Shown: one piece after another, positions 7,746 to 32,204 of the stretch
Numbering within the stretch: the stretch's first letter is position 1
How the letters are laid out: every line of letters begins with the position of its first letter
NCBI GenBank assembly: GCA_001804805.1
Contig: MHBH01000022.1
Location: 1 to 34,208, forward strand
From: Lentisphaerae bacterium GWF2_49_21
GTDB taxonomy: Bacteria > Verrucomicrobiota > Lentisphaeria > Victivallales > GWF2-50-93
Direction of reading: 5' to 3'
Length of the DNA: 34,208 nt
The notes under the pieces: generated by a model
What the model saw: the letters and a program-made list of their open reading frames with translations, nothing else
Told to the model about the DNA's origin: nothing
Databases searched by the model: none
Made by a program: the position numbers and the translations under genes

Positions 7746-10739
7746 ATGAAATCATTGAAATGTCTTGCTGTAATGTTGTCCATGCTGGCTGCGAGTTTCG
7801 CAGGAGCCGCGCCAAAATATCTTGAACTTGACAAGGCGGCGAATTCCAATTTCGAGGATGATGGTGTTGCCGACAACGGGAAGGGTGGATGGACTGACGA
7901 AGGTATAAACGACATGGTCATTTATCCGGAGCTGAAGTTCGGGGAGAATGTCCGCAACGGATACAAGTTCAAGCTCGTAGATCCTGCCGCGAACAGCGGT
8001 AATGCCGTCATCATCCTCAAGGGCGCGGAGCGCTGCAAGGACAAACCTCAGGAGGTTGCGGTGAAGGTTCCGTCGTACAAGGCGAAATACCTCTACTTCG
8101 TCCAGAATTCTGCCGCACAGGCGAAAGGCGAGCAGAAGAACTACGTGGTAGCGGTCTATACCGTAAAATATGAAGACGGGACTTCTGTGGATATCGAAAA
8201 TCATGACGGGGTCGAGATCCGGCAGTGGTGGACCGGCAACTGGTGGGACAACAGCGAAAGGAAAAGCTGGCCGATGTACATGGGGCGCAATTTCTATTCG
8301 CTCAAATGGAGCCAGCATATCGGGCTATGGGCTATGCAGTGGGAGAATCCGAATCCGGGCAAGGCGATAACCGAGATCAATTTCAAATCTGCAGGGAAAG
8401 CCGTGCCGATCATCTGGGCGGTGACTTTCGATGACGACAATTATTTTACGAACCCGGACATCAAGGCGGACTTCAAGCGTCCTGATGGGCCCCCGGAAGG
8501 TTTCTTCGACAAGAGGATCGCTCAGGAGCAGGAACGGCTCTTTTCCGAGATGAAGAAGGTTGGTGCAGCGAAAGGCATACGCAGGATAGAGCTGATAAAG
8601 CCTGATCTTGTAGCAGTCACCATAGATACTGTTGTCGCTGGCGGGGTCGGGCAGGGTGAGGCAAAGGCTTCGGCGCTGCAAAAGGAGGGAAGTTTCACAG
8701 TGAAGTCCTCCGACGGCAAGGATGCGGATTTCGCAAATGACACGAATCCTGCAAAGGTCGGAAGACATTCCTACAAGTATGACTCTGTCGACATCGGCGC
8801 TTTCCCCGGCAACCACCTCTACTGGCACACTTACTATCTCAAATTGTCAAAAGCGCTGAAGGCAGGAGGCAAATATCTGGTTTCGGTGAAGGGTATTCCA
8901 GTTGAATTCACAGCTTCGATGGAATTGGACTGCTCCGAGAAGACAGCGACTCCGGTGATCAAGGTCAACCAGGGCGCGTATTCATCGAAGGCTTCAAGGA
9001 GATATGCGTATCTTGGATGGTGGGGGGGCGACTTAGGGCCTCAGGACTTTTCAGAATTCAAGAAGTTCACGCTGGTGGACGAGAAGTCGGGCGCCGTGGT
9101 TTTCACCGGCGACATCAAGCTGAGGAGATCCTCTGAGGATCCCGGAAAGGACCCTAAATTAAAGCAGTCGGGGATAAGCGGCGAAAACGTGTATGAACTT
9201 GATTTCTCCGCATATGGAAAGCCCGGAAGATACTTCATACAGATTCCAGGATTCGCAAGCTCGAGCCCGTTCGGCATAGGCGGGGACGACATGAGGAACT
9301 GCTATTATACGACGATGCGCGGGTTCCTTGTCCAACGCTGCGGATGCGAACTTACTAAGGACGTTACAGATTATCCAAGACCCGCGTGCCATCTGAAGAA
9401 CTACGAGAGCGGGCACCTTGTCTATGGATGCAACGAGAAGTATGTGGATGGCAAGCCAGTGATACAGAACAAGCCCATGAAGGAAGGTGAACCCGTCAAG
9501 GAATTCCGCGGCGGCTACCATGACGCCGGAGATTTCGACCTGTTCTACGGCCATCTGCTCGCGTCCTCGATGACGATGATCGCATTCGAGTTCCAGCCCG
9601 ATGTATTCAAGGACGGCGACCTGAAGCTTCCCGAGAGCGGGAATAAGATCCCGGACATCCTTGACGAGGCCGAGTGGGGTCTCAAGTTCTATGCCGACAC
9701 GCAGGACGCCGATGGCGGAGTCTATGCCGGCCGTGGCAATGATGAGGACTATATTTACAAGGAATGGAAGAACGAGTTCAAGAAGTGGAAGGAGATGAAT
9801 CCCGACTGGAAGAAGTACGGTGACAATCCACCCTACGGTAATTTCTTCCCCAGCATGGGCTCATCGTTCACCTTTGCGGCGGTTGCCGCCCAGTATTCGC
9901 GCTGCGTGAAGAATTATGACGCCAAGAAGGCCGAGCTCTATCTTGCCAAGGCGAAGAAGGCATACGAATGGGCCGAGAAGCACCAAGCCGAAGGATATGA
10001 GAAGGAAGGAATCTCCTACGGAAGGGTCGAATGGAAGAAGGCCTGGGTATGGGCGGCTTCCGAGATGTTCAAGACAACTGGCGAGAAGAAGTACAGTGAC
10101 GATGTCGTCAGGCTCGCCGACAAGAAGGAGGACGCCTTCAAGAGCCCTTGGAACCAGGCGTACAGCATGCCGTTCTTCAAGTGGGCCTATGCGAGCGCGA
10201 AGAATCCCGGAGTCGATAATAAGGTGCAGAAGGAACTGGCCGACAGCATCGTGAAGTGCGCGAACGATGTTGTCAAGAATAACGAGAGCCACGCCTACAG
10301 GATGGGCAACGGCAGGGAGAGCGGCGGCTGGGGCAGCAACGTGGGCGGCGGCTATTACGCATACTCCTGCCTGATGGCGTACATGCTGACAGGCGAACAG
10401 AAATATCTGGATGCCGCCTGCGCAAATGCGGACTACCAGCTGGGCGCCAATCCGCTGTCACGCTCCTTCGTGACCGGAATAGGTGCGCGTCCTCCGGAAC
10501 ATCCCGAAATCAGGGGATGGCTCTACAAGGACAATGTGCCGGCACCTGGAATCTCAGTGTTCGGTCCGGGCGGGGACAGCAAGTCCCTTGGCGGAGCGTA
10601 TCCTGCGGAAGTTCCGCTCTGGAGATGCTGGCTTGACAACAGGGTCTCGGCGCTGCACAGCGAATTCACGGTCGGAAGCACTATCGGCGAATCCGGAATC
10701 CTCTATTCCCTCCTGTGGGCTGTGGAGAACAAAAAATGA
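7746..10739 (+). CDS. Secreted glycoside hydrolase family 9 enzyme with N-terminal beta-sandwich domain
   Basis: Secreted endo-beta-glucanase-type enzyme, 997 residues. A signal peptide (MKSLKCLAVMLSMLAASFAGA) is followed by about 230 residues resembling a carbohydrate-binding beta-sandwich (YTVKYEDGTSV, EIRQWWTGNWWD, WENPNPGKAITEI). The CelD_N-type immunoglobulin-like domain starts at about 405 (IKVNQGAY), and the GH9 (alpha/alpha)6 catalytic domain follows. The catalytic-base motif is GGYHDAGDFD (about 588-597); the C-terminal acid lies in HSEFTVG (about 970-976). LPESGNKIPDILDEAEWGL is another GH9 hallmark. The start ATG 7746 has GGGGAG at 7733-7738. The stop overlaps the ATG of the next GH9 (ATGA). 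Substrate is probably a beta-1,4-glucan or related polymer; exact specificity cannot be read from sequence. Confidence 0.88.
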   Translation: MKSLKCLAVMLSMLAASFAGAAPKYLELDKAANSNFEDDGVADNGKGGWTDEGINDMVIYPELKFGENVRNGYKFKLVDPAANSGNAVIILKGAERCKDKPQEVAVKVPSYKAKYLYFVQNSAAQAKGEQKNYVVAVYTVKYEDGTSVDIENHDGVEIRQWWTGNWWDNSERKSWPMYMGRNFYSLKWSQHIGLWAMQWENPNPGKAITEINFKSAGKAVPIIWAVTFDDDNYFTNPDIKADFKRPDGPPEGFFDKRIAQEQERLFSEMKKVGAAKGIRRIELIKPDLVAVTIDTVVAGGVGQGEAKASALQKEGSFTVKSSDGKDADFANDTNPAKVGRHSYKYDSVDIGAFPGNHLYWHTYYLKLSKALKAGGKYLVSVKGIPVEFTASMELDCSEKTATPVIKVNQGAYSSKASRRYAYLGWWGGDLGPQDFSEFKKFTLVDEKSGAVVFTGDIKLRRSSEDPGKDPKLKQSGISGENVYELDFSAYGKPGRYFIQIPGFASSSPFGIGGDDMRNCYYTTMRGFLVQRCGCELTKDVTDYPRPACHLKNYESGHLVYGCNEKYVDGKPVIQNKPMKEGEPVKEFRGGYHDAGDFDLFYGHLLASSMTMIAFEFQPDVFKDGDLKLPESGNKIPDILDEAEWGLKFYADTQDADGGVYAGRGNDEDYIYKEWKNEFKKWKEMNPDWKKYGDNPPYGNFFPSMGSSFTFAAVAAQYSRCVKNYDAKKAELYLAKAKKAYEWAEKHQAEGYEKEGISYGRVEWKKAWVWAASEMFKTTGEKKYSDDVVRLADKKEDAFKSPWNQAYSMPFFKWAYASAKNPGVDNKVQKELADSIVKCANDVVKNNESHAYRMGNGRESGGWGSNVGGGYYAYSCLMAYMLTGEQKYLDAACANADYQLGANPLSRSFVTGIGARPPEHPEIRGWLYKDNVPAPGISVFGPGGDSKSLGGAYPAEVPLWRCWLDNRVSALHSEFTVGSTIGESGILYSLLWAVENKK

Positions 10740-13276
10740 AAATAAGCCTGCTAGCCATTTCTTTTTTAATTTTATTTTCCGCATCCCTTTATGCGGAAAA
10801 TAAAATTGACAGGATATACGTGTTGACGCCGGAATGGATCGTTCTCGCCAGCAGCTACATGGACGAGACCGACGAGCTGATCTACAAGGAGAAGAAGGAG
10901 GACTTTGACAAGATCCTCCCCGAGATCGAGAAACTGGAGAAGGACGAGAGGACGAACTGGGTGCTGATAAAGAAGCGCACCAGGATATGGCAGAACGCCT
11001 ATGAGAAGTTCAGCACGCAGCATCTGCAGCTGTCGGATCCAAAGTTCTTCTCGGTGACATCCGACGACGATGCGAAGTTCGCACAGCCGCAGGTTCCGGT
11101 GAAGTCGGTGCCGTGGGTGAATTCCCTGGGTGACAGGAAGTACCGTGAGGGTTCACCGCTGAGAGGCTGTTTCAGCTACGAGATCGGCCACTACGCATAC
11201 CTGAAGCTTCCTTTCCCGCTGCAGAACGGGAAGAGTTATGCCGTCAAGCAGGCGGACGGCAGGACGGGCTCGTTCGTCTTTGACGACAGGAAGACTGTCA
11301 ACCGCGCGATCAAGGTTAACCAGGCGGGATATCTTGAGGATGCCCCGCAGAAGTTCGCATATCTTGGAGCCTGGATCCCGTCGGTGGGGGCGGTTGACTA
11401 TTCTGCGTATCCCGAGTTCAAGGTGTTGAAGGCCGCAGACATGTCTGAAGCGTTCAGCGGCAAGATCGCGCTCAGGGCGAAGGATGAGAAGAAATGGGGA
11501 TATAATGGCGGTCAGAGCTATTCCGGGGAAGATGTTTATGAAATGGATTTCAGCACGTTCAAGACGCCTGGCAAGTATTTCATATATGTGCCTGGGCTTG
11601 GCAGGAGCTGGGATCTTGAAATCGGGAAGAACGCGATCGGCGAAGCATTTTATACGGCCGCGAGGGGCATGTACCACCAGCGCTGCGGCTGTGCCCTTGA
11701 CGCCAAGCACACGGCCTGGACGAGGGGGCTTTGCCATCCTCCGCCGGTATACGGCTGCAAATTGATAGGCGGCGGCGGCAACTGGTTCCTAGAGAGCGGC
11801 GACAAGGCCGCGAAGAACAGCAACAACTTTGATTTTGAGATCATCAAGCAGACGACTGACCTCACGCAGAAATATGACATCTGGGGCGGCTGGCATGACG
11901 CCGCCGACTACGACCGTGGCGAATACCACCACCGCCCCATATGGGACATGCTCGGGCTTTATGAGATAAATCCGAAGGCTTTCACTGATGGGCAGCTCGA
12001 CATCCCCGAGAGCGGAAACGGCATCCCCGATATCATCGACGAGGCGAAATACGGGATAGATCTATGGAAGAGGTCCCAGGACAAGGACGGCGGAGTGAGC
12101 GGCAGGGTCGAGACCACCCAGCATCCCGGCAAGAGGCAGATGCCCGAGTTCGAGAAGTTGAACTTCAGCAGGTCGATACCAACGCGCCAGTGCACGATGT
12201 ACTATGCCGCGAGCGCCGCGATGTTCGCAAGGATCGTCAAGGACTTCGACAAGAAGATGTCGGAGGAATACTGCAACTCCGCAATTGCCGCCTATAGATG
12301 GGCGTCTGATCCGAAGAACTCGCGAGAGAACACTGAGCTGGAGATCATGCTGAAGAATGAGAAGACGAAGAAGGAAGAGAAGACCAAGCTCATATATAAG
12401 GGGAAGGACGAGAGGCTCTGCCTTGCAGGGCTGCATGCGGCGGTCAACCTGTATGTTGTCACCGGTGATGCCGCTTTCCTGAAGGACGCGGAAGAGAAGT
12501 TTGCCAAAGACAGCATCAGGCAGTTCAAGTCCTGGCCTAACTACCTCATTGTGCAGTGGGGGCTGTTCGAATACGCATGGCTCGATCTCAAGGGCGCGAA
12601 CGAAGAGATGCGCAAGACTGCGAAAAATGAGCTGCTGGCCTTTGCCGACCAGGAACTGGAGCCCCAGAAGAAATCCCCATACAGGAACTTCTGGCATGAT
12701 GGCAAGTCGCGCGCATGGGGATCAGGTGTGCCGTCGACCTGGGCGAAGTATGCGATACTTGCCTATTTCCTTTCGAAGGACGAGAAATACAAAAGTTCGG
12801 CCCTGATGAACCTCGATTTCCAGATGGGCTGCAATCCGCTGGGCATGGTCCAGACCACCGGCATAGGCAAGGTCTTTCCATGCGAGATACAGGATATGGA
12901 GAGCAGGGCCGACGGGATTGACGAGCCGGTTCCGGGGATAACGACGTATGGAATAGTGGATATACCTTACTTCGTGCGCCTCAACGTCTACAGCATGGAG
13001 ATTTTCTCAGTGGAAAAAGAGAAGGAGTCCCGCAGGATTTATTTCCTTCCCGAAGGCTTCAAGGTCGACAAGCCCGAGATCCCCATGTGGAGGCAGCTTG
13101 GTCCGCATTCCTCCCTGAATCCCGAGTGCAATGAATTTACCGTCCATGAGACGATGGGGCAGACTGTCCTCATGCTAGGAGCTTTCCTCGGAGAAGGCTG
13201 GATGCCGGACAAGTCCCTGAAGGAAAGGAAACCGCGCAAATACGATGAGCTGGAAGGATATTTCTGGCTGCCATAG
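10736..13276 (+). CDS. Secreted glycoside hydrolase family 9 enzyme
   Basis: Second GH9 of the operon, 846 residues. Signal peptide MKISLLAISFLILFSASLYA; then a charged, partly helical N-terminal region (about 25-110), a CelD_N-type domain from about 191 (IKVNQAGYLEDAPQ) and the catalytic domain. The catalytic-base motif is GGWHDAADYD (about 383-392) and the C-terminal acid is in ECNEFTV (about 796-802). LDIPESGNGIPDIIDEAKYG supports GH9. The start is the ATG overlapping the previous stop; an upstream in-frame ATG at 10715 lies inside the previous gene and would spoil the signal peptide. The signal-peptide codons contain a perfect 17-bp stem-loop (10768-10807). Its low identity to the flanking GH9 genes suggests complementary substrate roles, which is inference. 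Confidence 0.88.
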   Translation: MKISLLAISFLILFSASLYAENKIDRIYVLTPEWIVLASSYMDETDELIYKEKKEDFDKILPEIEKLEKDERTNWVLIKKRTRIWQNAYEKFSTQHLQLSDPKFFSVTSDDDAKFAQPQVPVKSVPWVNSLGDRKYREGSPLRGCFSYEIGHYAYLKLPFPLQNGKSYAVKQADGRTGSFVFDDRKTVNRAIKVNQAGYLEDAPQKFAYLGAWIPSVGAVDYSAYPEFKVLKAADMSEAFSGKIALRAKDEKKWGYNGGQSYSGEDVYEMDFSTFKTPGKYFIYVPGLGRSWDLEIGKNAIGEAFYTAARGMYHQRCGCALDAKHTAWTRGLCHPPPVYGCKLIGGGGNWFLESGDKAAKNSNNFDFEIIKQTTDLTQKYDIWGGWHDAADYDRGEYHHRPIWDMLGLYEINPKAFTDGQLDIPESGNGIPDIIDEAKYGIDLWKRSQDKDGGVSGRVETTQHPGKRQMPEFEKLNFSRSIPTRQCTMYYAASAAMFARIVKDFDKKMSEEYCNSAIAAYRWASDPKNSRENTELEIMLKNEKTKKEEKTKLIYKGKDERLCLAGLHAAVNLYVVTGDAAFLKDAEEKFAKDSIRQFKSWPNYLIVQWGLFEYAWLDLKGANEEMRKTAKNELLAFADQELEPQKKSPYRNFWHDGKSRAWGSGVPSTWAKYAILAYFLSKDEKYKSSALMNLDFQMGCNPLGMVQTTGIGKVFPCEIQDMESRADGIDEPVPGITTYGIVDIPYFVRLNVYSMEIFSVEKEKESRRIYFLPEGFKVDKPEIPMWRQLGPHSSLNPECNEFTVHETMGQTVLMLGAFLGEGWMPDKSLKERKPRKYDELEGYFWLP
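10768..10807. repeat. Perfect 17-bp stem-loop inside the GH9 signal-peptide codons
   Basis: AATTTTATTTTCCGCAT (10768-10784), a 6-nt loop (CCCTTT) and the exact complement (10791-10807). It begins 28 bp after the GH9 gene's ATG was read and encodes the hydrophobic core and cleavage site. A run of T (10762-10767) precedes it. There is no T-tract after it on either strand, so it is not a standard terminator. Confidence 0.92.
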
Positions 13277-13300: not shown

Positions 13301-14242
13301 ATGAGATATTCGCATAAATTCACTTTGATCGAGCTGCTGGCTGTGCCAGCCGTAGCCACACGGGCGAAGGCAAGCTCTAAAAGCGTATTTACGCTTATAG
13401 AGCTGTTGGTAGTAATTGCGATCATCGCAATACTGGCGGCGCTTCTGCTCCCTGCGCTCAAGAGAGCAAAGGATTACTCATATCAGGCGTTGTGCCTGAG
13501 CATGCTCAGACAGCATGGTCTCGGAGTCATGGACTACACGATGGATAATTCGGAGGTGCTTCCGGGCGCCGTTTCAGGAAGCACGGATTCGGGTGGACAT
13601 GTCACGAGCGAATGGGAGTATTTTTTCAGCCACAGTCTTTCCGCCGATATTGGTGACGGCAGCAACCAGCAGAACCTTGCAACGTTTTATAACCTGGATC
13701 CCGTGCAACAGACTGAGAATGGATGGGGTGTATGCCATTCGGAGAATTACAATGCGGGCAGGGATTCAAGCACCGTGAAGGGGGAAGCAAAAGTCCAGAA
13801 CTACTGCTGTCCGGCATACATCAGGAGATGGCGCAACAACAGCATCTCTTTCTTTGAAAGTGCAGGAAATCAGTATAAGGAAGCCCCTTACAGGCGAGGC
13901 TACATCCATGCTTTCTCCACTGACGGAACAGACGGCGGCCCTTACCGCGGATCACCGGGATGGAGGAAGCTTTCAACTATAGGCACAAGGACAGCCGCCA
14001 ACTACTCGTCCGGATGGTCCTACTACTGGTCGCAGAACACAAGGCCGGACAAGCTGGTCATCATATGCGACTACAAGTTCCCGACGAACATCAACGATGT
14101 ATTGCCGTATTGCAAAGGGAACGGACATCCCTCCGGATACAGTTACCTGACTCTTGACGGTGCGGTAAGATTTTCCCCGACGCAGAACATCCAGCAGTTC
14201 ACCGGATGGGACGCCGCGCCGGGCTGGGTGCTTCTGGATTGA
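13301..14242 (+). CDS. Prepilin/pseudopilin with doubled N-terminal methylation motif
   Basis: Secreted type IV-pilin-like protein, 313 residues, of the family abundant in Lentisphaerae and Planctomycetes. It carries two prepilin motifs: KFTLIELLAV (from about residue 6) and [20 protein letters not shown] (from about residue 29), separated by a short Ala/Lys-rich linker. Only the second is followed by the full hydrophobic helix. The position before Phe is Lys and Val respectively instead of the canonical Gly. The C-terminus has GHPSGYSYLTLDG, an H-x9-DG motif. I choose ATG 13301 over ATG 13280 because GTGGGG lies at 13290-13295. It sits 24 bp after a GH9 gene and 50 bp before the next, so it is part of the hydrolase operon. 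Its role (surface attachment, or pseudopilus for type II export) is inferred. Confidence 0.83.
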   Translation: MRYSHKFTLIELLAVPAVATRAKASSKSVFTLIELLVVIAIIAILAALLLPALKRAKDYSYQALCLSMLRQHGLGVMDYTMDNSEVLPGAVSGSTDSGGHVTSEWEYFFSHSLSADIGDGSNQQNLATFYNLDPVQQTENGWGVCHSENYNAGRDSSTVKGEAKVQNYCCPAYIRRWRNNSISFFESAGNQYKEAPYRRGYIHAFSTDGTDGGPYRGSPGWRKLSTIGTRTAANYSSGWSYYWSQNTRPDKLVIICDYKFPTNINDVLPYCKGNGHPSGYSYLTLDGAVRFSPTQNIQQFTGWDAAPGWVLLD

Positions 14243-32164: not shown

Positions 32165-32204
32165 GTAAATATTCACTGAAGTATGCCCTTCAGTGAATAT
32201 TTAC
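32165..32204. terminator. Perfect 17-bp stem-loop after ruvC
   Basis: GTAAATATTCACTGAAG (32165-32181), loop TATGCC, and exact complement (32188-32204). It starts 2 bp after the ruvC stop. It lacks a following T-run, so it may protect the mRNA 3' end instead of terminating by itself. Stem and loop sizes equal those of the palindrome at 10768. Confidence 0.6.

Follow-up and report, generated by a model that had tools for sequence, protein, structure and literature searches.

We describe here a perfect palindrome in the signal-peptide codons of a GH9 gene of Lentisphaerae bacterium GWF2_49_21, which is one case of a genus-level phenomenon: a perfect stem of equal length is present at this place in a second species, stems inside genes exceed codon-shuffled expectation in both genomes of the genus that were sampled, and at two other loci the two arms of a stem show joint changes from one species to another. 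We consider it slightly better than an even chance (a probability of about 0.5) that the GH9 palindrome formed in place and that its arms have been kept matched by DNA template switching, with the signal peptide tolerating the result.

A perfect palindrome in the signal peptide of a GH9 gene

The window, that is the whole stretch of 34,208 nt that was analysed, belongs to a genome assembled in 91 contigs (5.9 Mb), here designated G000; G001, G002 and G003 are other members of the genus. As the initial annotation had recognized, a perfect 17-bp stem with a 6-nt loop is found about 30 bp into the second of two consecutive GH9 genes (Table 1). It reads AATTTTATTTTCCGCAT-CCCTTT-ATGCGGAAAATAAAATT (window 10768-10807), its 17-nt arms are 100% complementary, and it occupies codons 11-24, within a signal peptide judged by eye. 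It starts 32 nt past the A of the ATG at 10736, and the stop codon of the first GH9 gene (10737-10739) leaves a 28-nt gap before it. The two genes, whose products both match the GH9 and CelD_N families of Pfam, overlap by four bases (ATGA).

Table 1. Position of the palindrome and of the neighbouring genes in the window
Feature	Position	Strand	Remarks
5' arm	10768..10784	+	T-rich; encodes LILFSA, hydrophobic part of the signal peptide
Loop CCCTTT	10785..10790	+	other loop sequence in the sister species G001
3' arm	10791..10807	+	A-rich; encodes AENKI and the last residues of the signal peptide
Second GH9 gene (846 aa), containing the palindrome	10736..13276	+	Glyco_hydro_9, E 9e-29; CelD_N, 1.5e-12
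First GH9 gene	7746..10739	+	stop overlaps next start (ATGA); Pfam GH9 and CelD_N
Fe-S protein gene	6732..7724	+	Fer4 matches below curated cut-off; G001 counterpart directly upstream of the GH9 orthologue

Whichever strand is read, a T-rich 5' arm precedes an A-rich 3' arm, so that the T tract of a terminator is lacking, and a terminator scan returned 0. A 150-nt RNA carrying the stem folds with a z-score of -3.56, none of 200 shuffles being as good. The genome holds no second copy of the palindrome, only its own site and the reverse complement of that site, and no Rfam family matches the window at the gathering score. A gene at 13301-14242, located between two GH9 genes, gives a weak N-terminal methylation (prepilin) match below the cut-off.

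The palindrome in ruvC (window 32165-32204) was correctly noted to have the same size and a different sequence. It is part of a separate family, which occupies 20 places in the genome and is characterized by outer arms TAAATATTCAC/GTGAATATTTA and variable cores which are usually complementary; 7 of the 11 sampled members start between -3 and +18 nt from a stop codon. The GH9 palindrome is not among the 20 places with the outer arm TAAATATTCAC.

Conservation of the stem in a sister species

The G001 orthologue, with 82% protein identity, carries a perfect 17-bp stem, ATTTTATTTTCCGCATG-TCTC-CATGCGGAAAATAAAAT. Sixteen pairs are common to both species, the loop is different and the outermost pair is lost. 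Among the stem codons specifying the same amino acid, 9/10 are identical, versus 355/644 elsewhere in the gene (p = 0.024). The 5' arm retains all five of its codons, whereas of the nine positions that separate it from Met-Lys one retains its codon and eight are different or gapped. The only synonymous substitution affecting the stem, ATC for ATT in G001, opens the outermost base pair alone, and none of the orthologues compared combines the same protein with a stem destroyed by synonymous changes. The RNA fold is as strong in G001 (z = -3.57) and falls to -0.68 in the stemless orthologue L044.

The initial annotation had proposed that the hairpin sets the ratio of the two GH9 enzymes. In G001, the stem starts 30 nt after the stop of a different gene (29 nt after the last base of the stop in the window), namely the counterpart of the Fe-S protein gene and not a GH9 gene; the stem thus does not serve to balance two GH9 enzymes, and this role was rejected. 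The conservation of the stem in one sister species lends some plausibility to the broader idea of an mRNA element. In the window, a GH9 gene separates the Fe-S gene from the second GH9 gene (6732-10739), whereas these two genes adjoin in G001; to judge from this gene order, the intervening GH9 gene was either gained in the window's species or lost in G001.

The more distant orthologues L044 (73%) and L091 (54%) have no stem. They encode 21 and 22 residues before AE, versus 20 in the window gene, and the palindrome is therefore not an insert. Both are too distant for the reconstruction of a single event of arm rewriting, and no close stemless relative was found. Searches with the GH9 protein gave no match in G002 and G003, and the stem is present in two species only.

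Excess of perfect stems inside genes of the genus

The survey covered 1.90 Mb of G000 (32% of the genome, part of which was chosen for holding TAAATATTCAC-family or TTCCGCA matches), 0.39 Mb of G001 and 350 kb of Escherichia coli K-12. Genes were called by our own simple script based on codon usage, signal peptides were assigned by a hydropathy rule, and the null consisted of shuffling synonymous codons within each gene. The 1371 genes called in G000 contain 23 perfect stems of at least 12 bp, versus 0.9 (10 shuffles) or 1.6 (5 shuffles) expected. Seven reach at least 14 bp, a length which the shuffles gave 0 times in 10 rounds and once in 5 further rounds; since synonymous shuffles so rarely give such stems, the GH9 palindrome is not due to chance. 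The G001 sample has 7 in-gene stems of at least 12 bp versus 0.2 expected. With the same pipeline, E. coli (0.30 Mb coding) has none versus 0.3 expected, while 4.4 would be predicted from the G000 rate (Poisson p = 0.012), and no perfect stem of even 11 bp or more occurs in the genes called in the 350-kb sample. Over all sequence, stems amount to 29 per Mb in E. coli and 60 per Mb in G000. No stem of at least 12 bp is present anywhere in 160 kb of short contigs of G011, from another genus of the same family (p = 7e-5).

For loops of 3-8 nt, in-gene perfect stems number 20 versus 0.83 expected and one-mismatch stems 10 versus 3.17. In a separate count of in-gene one-mismatch stems, G.U and A.C mismatches stood at 5 : 0 in G000 and 0 : 1 in G001, an excess of G.U which is not significant (p = 0.22), falls to 3 : 1 under other settings and concerns few cases. 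With loops up to 10 nt, the longest perfect stem of the 1.9-Mb sample measures 20 bp inside genes and 23 bp outside. The 5' arm is T-rich in 15 of the 23 in-gene stems, A-rich in 4 and neither in 4; for stems outside genes (loops up to 10 nt), subtraction gives 22/86 with a T-rich and 28/86 with an A-rich 5' arm, the latter kind being the one that would resemble a terminator. The 39 in-gene stems of at least 11 bp have features in common: their outer end tends to read ATA (A 0.72, T 0.64, A 0.54), their base is AT-rich and their tip richer in GC. Stems found at stop codons show these features too. Otherwise the arms of the in-gene stems differ in sequence and spacing and their loops vary, and many of these stems lie mid-gene, hundreds of bases into genes for unrelated proteins. 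Counted by eye, the stem-loop length is a multiple of three in 6 of the 23 cases, which indicates no preference.

Outside genes, 91 stems of at least 12 bp were listed in the G000 sample (e.g. L060, L071, L006, L018): 13 of them begin on the final base of a stop codon and 17 on the preceding base, compared with one at +1 and two at +2, and both T-rich and A-rich 5' arms abut stops. A 19-bp perfect stem (C32:124261-124302 in G000) immediately precedes what is probably the true ATG of a U32 peptidase gene, and its 3' arm, GGAAAGAAAAA, could be a ribosome-binding site hidden in the stem.

Concentration in export signals

Stems of at least 11 bp within the first 120 nt of G000 genes are found in 5/404 signal-peptide genes (null 0.07), 3/44 prepilin genes (0.00) and 2/923 other genes (0.23), or 8/448 for the two export classes combined versus 2/923 (p = 0.003); at least one of these stems (C32:124261, class "other") and perhaps a second (C32:26076, signal peptide) may sit in a leader and not in the gene. 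The corresponding values in G001 are 2/87 (0.00), 1/12 (0.03) and 0/165 (0.10). A scan for the FTLIELL motif found a stem of at least 9 bp upstream of 5/84 sites, versus 0/84 control stretches. In prepilin-type genes (C66:55117, C66:55946, C33:70408 and C2:5776 in G000; C118 in G001), perfect stems of 12-15 bp occupy the codons just before FTLIELL, and those of two adjacent genes are similar yet different. Tolerance, as opposed to selection, may account for this concentration: codons for Lys, Asn and Glu have reverse complements of the Phe, Ile and Leu-like kind, and these are acceptable in a signal peptide.

Joint evolution of the arms

Four loci were compared across species: the GH9 gene, a PHP-domain gene, a TIM-barrel gene and a transporter gene. 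The stem of the PHP-domain gene (C40:5883 in G000) is 20 bp long in G000, 17 bp in G001 and 18 bp in G002; in G009 it has 4 bp, and no match was found in G003 and G011. Five of its pairs underwent a double change that left the pairing intact: C-G became T-A in two cases, and T-A became A-T in two and G-C in one. One such change converts both a Leu and a Gln to His; at another pair, G001 has an A.A mismatch, which stands between the paired states of G000 and G002. Between G000 and G002, the four double changes were reached in none of 20,000 trials of random placement; the lone double change that separates G001 from G000 fell short of significance (p = 0.067).

The stem of the TIM-barrel gene (C71:805) measures 13, 18 and 12 bp in G000, G001 and G003, and 5 bp in G009 and G011; the search gave no match in G002. 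Its two double changes, from C-G to A-T and from A-T to T-A (p = 0.016 in the comparison with G000, 0.004 in that with G001), replace amino acids in both arms. Altogether, the seven double changes at these two loci alter the protein, and 5/7 are double transversions, for which there is no G.U bridge. The outgroups have no stem at either locus.

The transporter gene, found from G001, has a perfect 16-bp stem in that species. In G002 the stem contains a single C.A mismatch, in G003 a single G.U, and in G000 it has eroded to 6 bp; no double change was seen. Since this stem is perfect in only one of four genus members and eroded in the window's own species, maintenance is not strict. Two of the four loci thus display joint evolution, one (GH9) conservation and one (transporter) partial decay. 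Synonymous sites are more conserved in the stem for the best species pair of each of the four genes (p = 0.024, 0.005, 0.026 and 0.028), and not clearly so in the other 10 species pairs (p = 0.055-0.96). Within the genus, pairing at these sites is real and is inherited, and the protein sequence sometimes follows it. Because the GH9 stem is conserved without a double change, its place in the jointly changing class is one that we infer from the other loci.

Origin and maintenance of the palindromes

According to two reports, template switching homogenizes the arms of inverted repeats and creates perfect stems; one event can suffice, multi-base and double changes are produced, and no function is required (PMC8794818; PMC8604942). 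Applied to the GH9 gene, the nascent strand would fold back at a small inverted repeat during replication, and one arm would be copied into the other (quasi-palindrome conversion by template switching), thereby coupling the two arms. The A-rich arm, encoding AENKI, would act as the template, and its reverse complement would provide Phe, Ile and Leu codons tolerated by the core of the signal peptide, probably with no specific function for the site. Arguing for such copying are the double transversions lacking a G.U bridge, the replacements in both arms, the scatter over unrelated genes, the varying loops and the larger excess of perfect than of one-mismatch stems. Several observations go against it: the GH9 stem occurs in only two species and has no double change; maintenance at the transporter locus is not strict; the shared ATA outer ends, AT-rich base and GC-richer tip are not predicted by template switching; the one-mismatch class is also in excess; and the synonymous conservation in stems is what structural selection would give as well. 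Copying and selection may both act together.

The main alternative is a selected mRNA hairpin, which we hold to be distinctly less probable. Located 33-72 nt into the gene, just downstream of the initiating ribosome, the hairpin would slow early elongation or protect the message, and perhaps aid export, selection keeping the pairing while ordinary mutation supplies the compensations. The enrichment in the first 120 nt of signal-peptide and prepilin genes, the strong folds of the two stem-bearing GH9 sequences compared with stemless L044, the synonymous conservation for the best pair of each of the four genes and the shared architecture of ends, base and tip are all in keeping with it. The one-mismatch stems point the same way in G000 (G.U 5 : A.C 0), with the reservations on significance and settings given above and with 0 : 1 in G001. 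However, loops are not conserved, many stems occur in the middle of genes for unrelated proteins, stems with one mismatch are fewer than perfect ones (10 versus 20), and double transversions that change amino acids are an unlikely route for compensation by point mutations. That the structure is the terminator or 3'-end hairpin of the upstream gene, happening to fall in the next gene, appears improbable. It does start shortly after an upstream stop in both species, and many stems of the G000 genome abut stop codons, but many other in-gene stems lie far into their genes, and an intrinsic terminator was rejected, as the scan returned 0 and no T tract follows a GC stem, the 3' arm being A-rich.

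The remaining explanations are weaker still. A perfect dyad of this length close to the start of a gene, with recurrent AT-rich outer ends, might suggest an operator or another double-stranded DNA site for a dimeric protein. This is, however, very improbable: the arms of in-gene stems differ in sequence and spacing, and the pattern TTCCGCA-N4-14-TGCGGAA recurs just once elsewhere in the genome, the reversed control pattern likewise giving one place. That other site is an 11-bp stem in another signal-peptide start and may be a chance match. The initial annotation had also considered an inserted palindromic element tolerated in frame. The perfect palindrome within a reading frame recalls the elements of Rickettsia, but the signal peptides of the stemless orthologues differ by only 1-2 residues from that of the window gene, which has no extra in-frame length, no second copy exists, and multiples of three are not preferred among stem-loops; insertion was therefore rejected and we give it hardly any credence. 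That T-rich codons of the signal peptide merely happen to be complementary to A-rich ones is the least credible reading of all: hydrophobic codons are naturally complementary to those for Lys, Asn and Glu, but 30 rounds of codon shuffling within the signal-peptide class of G000 gave a mean of 0.07 stems of at least 11 bp and none of 12, versus 5 and 3 observed.

SbcD exceeds the curated cut-off in 6 of the 21 genomes (including G009 and G011) and in none of G000-G003, where only weak matches over about 90 of 252 positions were found. SbcC matches are present in 9/21 genomes and absent from G000-G003; as none passes the cut-off, presence was scored by E-values. Two other genera of the family have both SbcC and SbcD, and two more do not. 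The pattern in the genus thus fits a loss of hairpin surveillance. As a sufficient cause, this loss was rejected: G010 and G012 (same family) and G006 and G007 (same order) also lack both genes, and none of the 60 ATATTTT...AAAATAT places in G006 and G007 (0/26 and 0/34) reaches a 12-bp stem, compared with 12/28 in the G000 sample and 0/3 in the G001 sample. Raw counts of ATATTTT...AAAATAT are not a useful test, the pattern beating its control in 20/21 genomes and tying (2 and 2) in G010.

Comparison with known systems

The closest precedent is provided by the coding palindromes of nematomorph mitochondria. They are described as perfect, with both arms coding, and as present in some species and absent from others through gain and loss; almost all of the long ones are perfect, and the authors propose template switching and weigh it against function (PMC6649704). 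The GH9 arms are likewise perfect and both coding, but the nematomorph palindromes reach up to 284 bp and occur in animal mitochondria, whereas those of the present genus measure 12-20 bp, lie in genes of a bacterial chromosome and are in some cases imperfect. Identity of the arms through sequence change, as in nematomorphs, is seen at the PHP-domain and TIM-barrel loci; the GH9 stem is kept in two species without a double change, and the transporter stem is perfect in one of four.

The template-switch hairpins described in PMC8794818 and PMC8604942 resemble ours in arm homogenization, multi-base double changes and amino-acid replacements, but concern RNA genes and yeast strains in which the events were reconstructed, whereas here the event is deduced from few species. 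Quasi-palindrome mutagenesis in E. coli, as presented in PMC6357072, is similar in that an 18-bp imperfect coding repeat is perfected by copying one arm; that system is, however, a reporter assay, and the E. coli genes sampled here are themselves free of perfect stems of 11 bp or more. The palindromic elements of Rickettsia also lie inside reading frames, but are insertions (PMC6649704), while the GH9 palindrome brings no added length and has no related copies in the genome. Literature searches outside subscription sources listed no coding palindromes of bacterial chromosomes kept perfect across species, which does not prove their absence, and the titles retrieved included nothing relevant on hairpins within coding sequence, whether of Lentisphaerae or of signal peptides.

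When the two arms of a stem change in a paired manner, this is usually read as proof of a functional RNA. In our estimation it is an evenly balanced proposition that this genus carries tens of short chromosomal coding palindromes in which complementarity between the arms is actively maintained, either through copying or because hairpins are generally required, with the proteins following and with a preference for export-signal codons. If true, these would be a chromosomal, bacterial counterpart of the mitochondrial palindromes of nematomorphs. If the process is arm-to-arm copying, a mutational process would mimic structural selection and drive amino-acid replacements in ordinary enzymes; the genus would then be a natural test case for separating copying from selection, and for identifying which nucleases normally prevent such copying.
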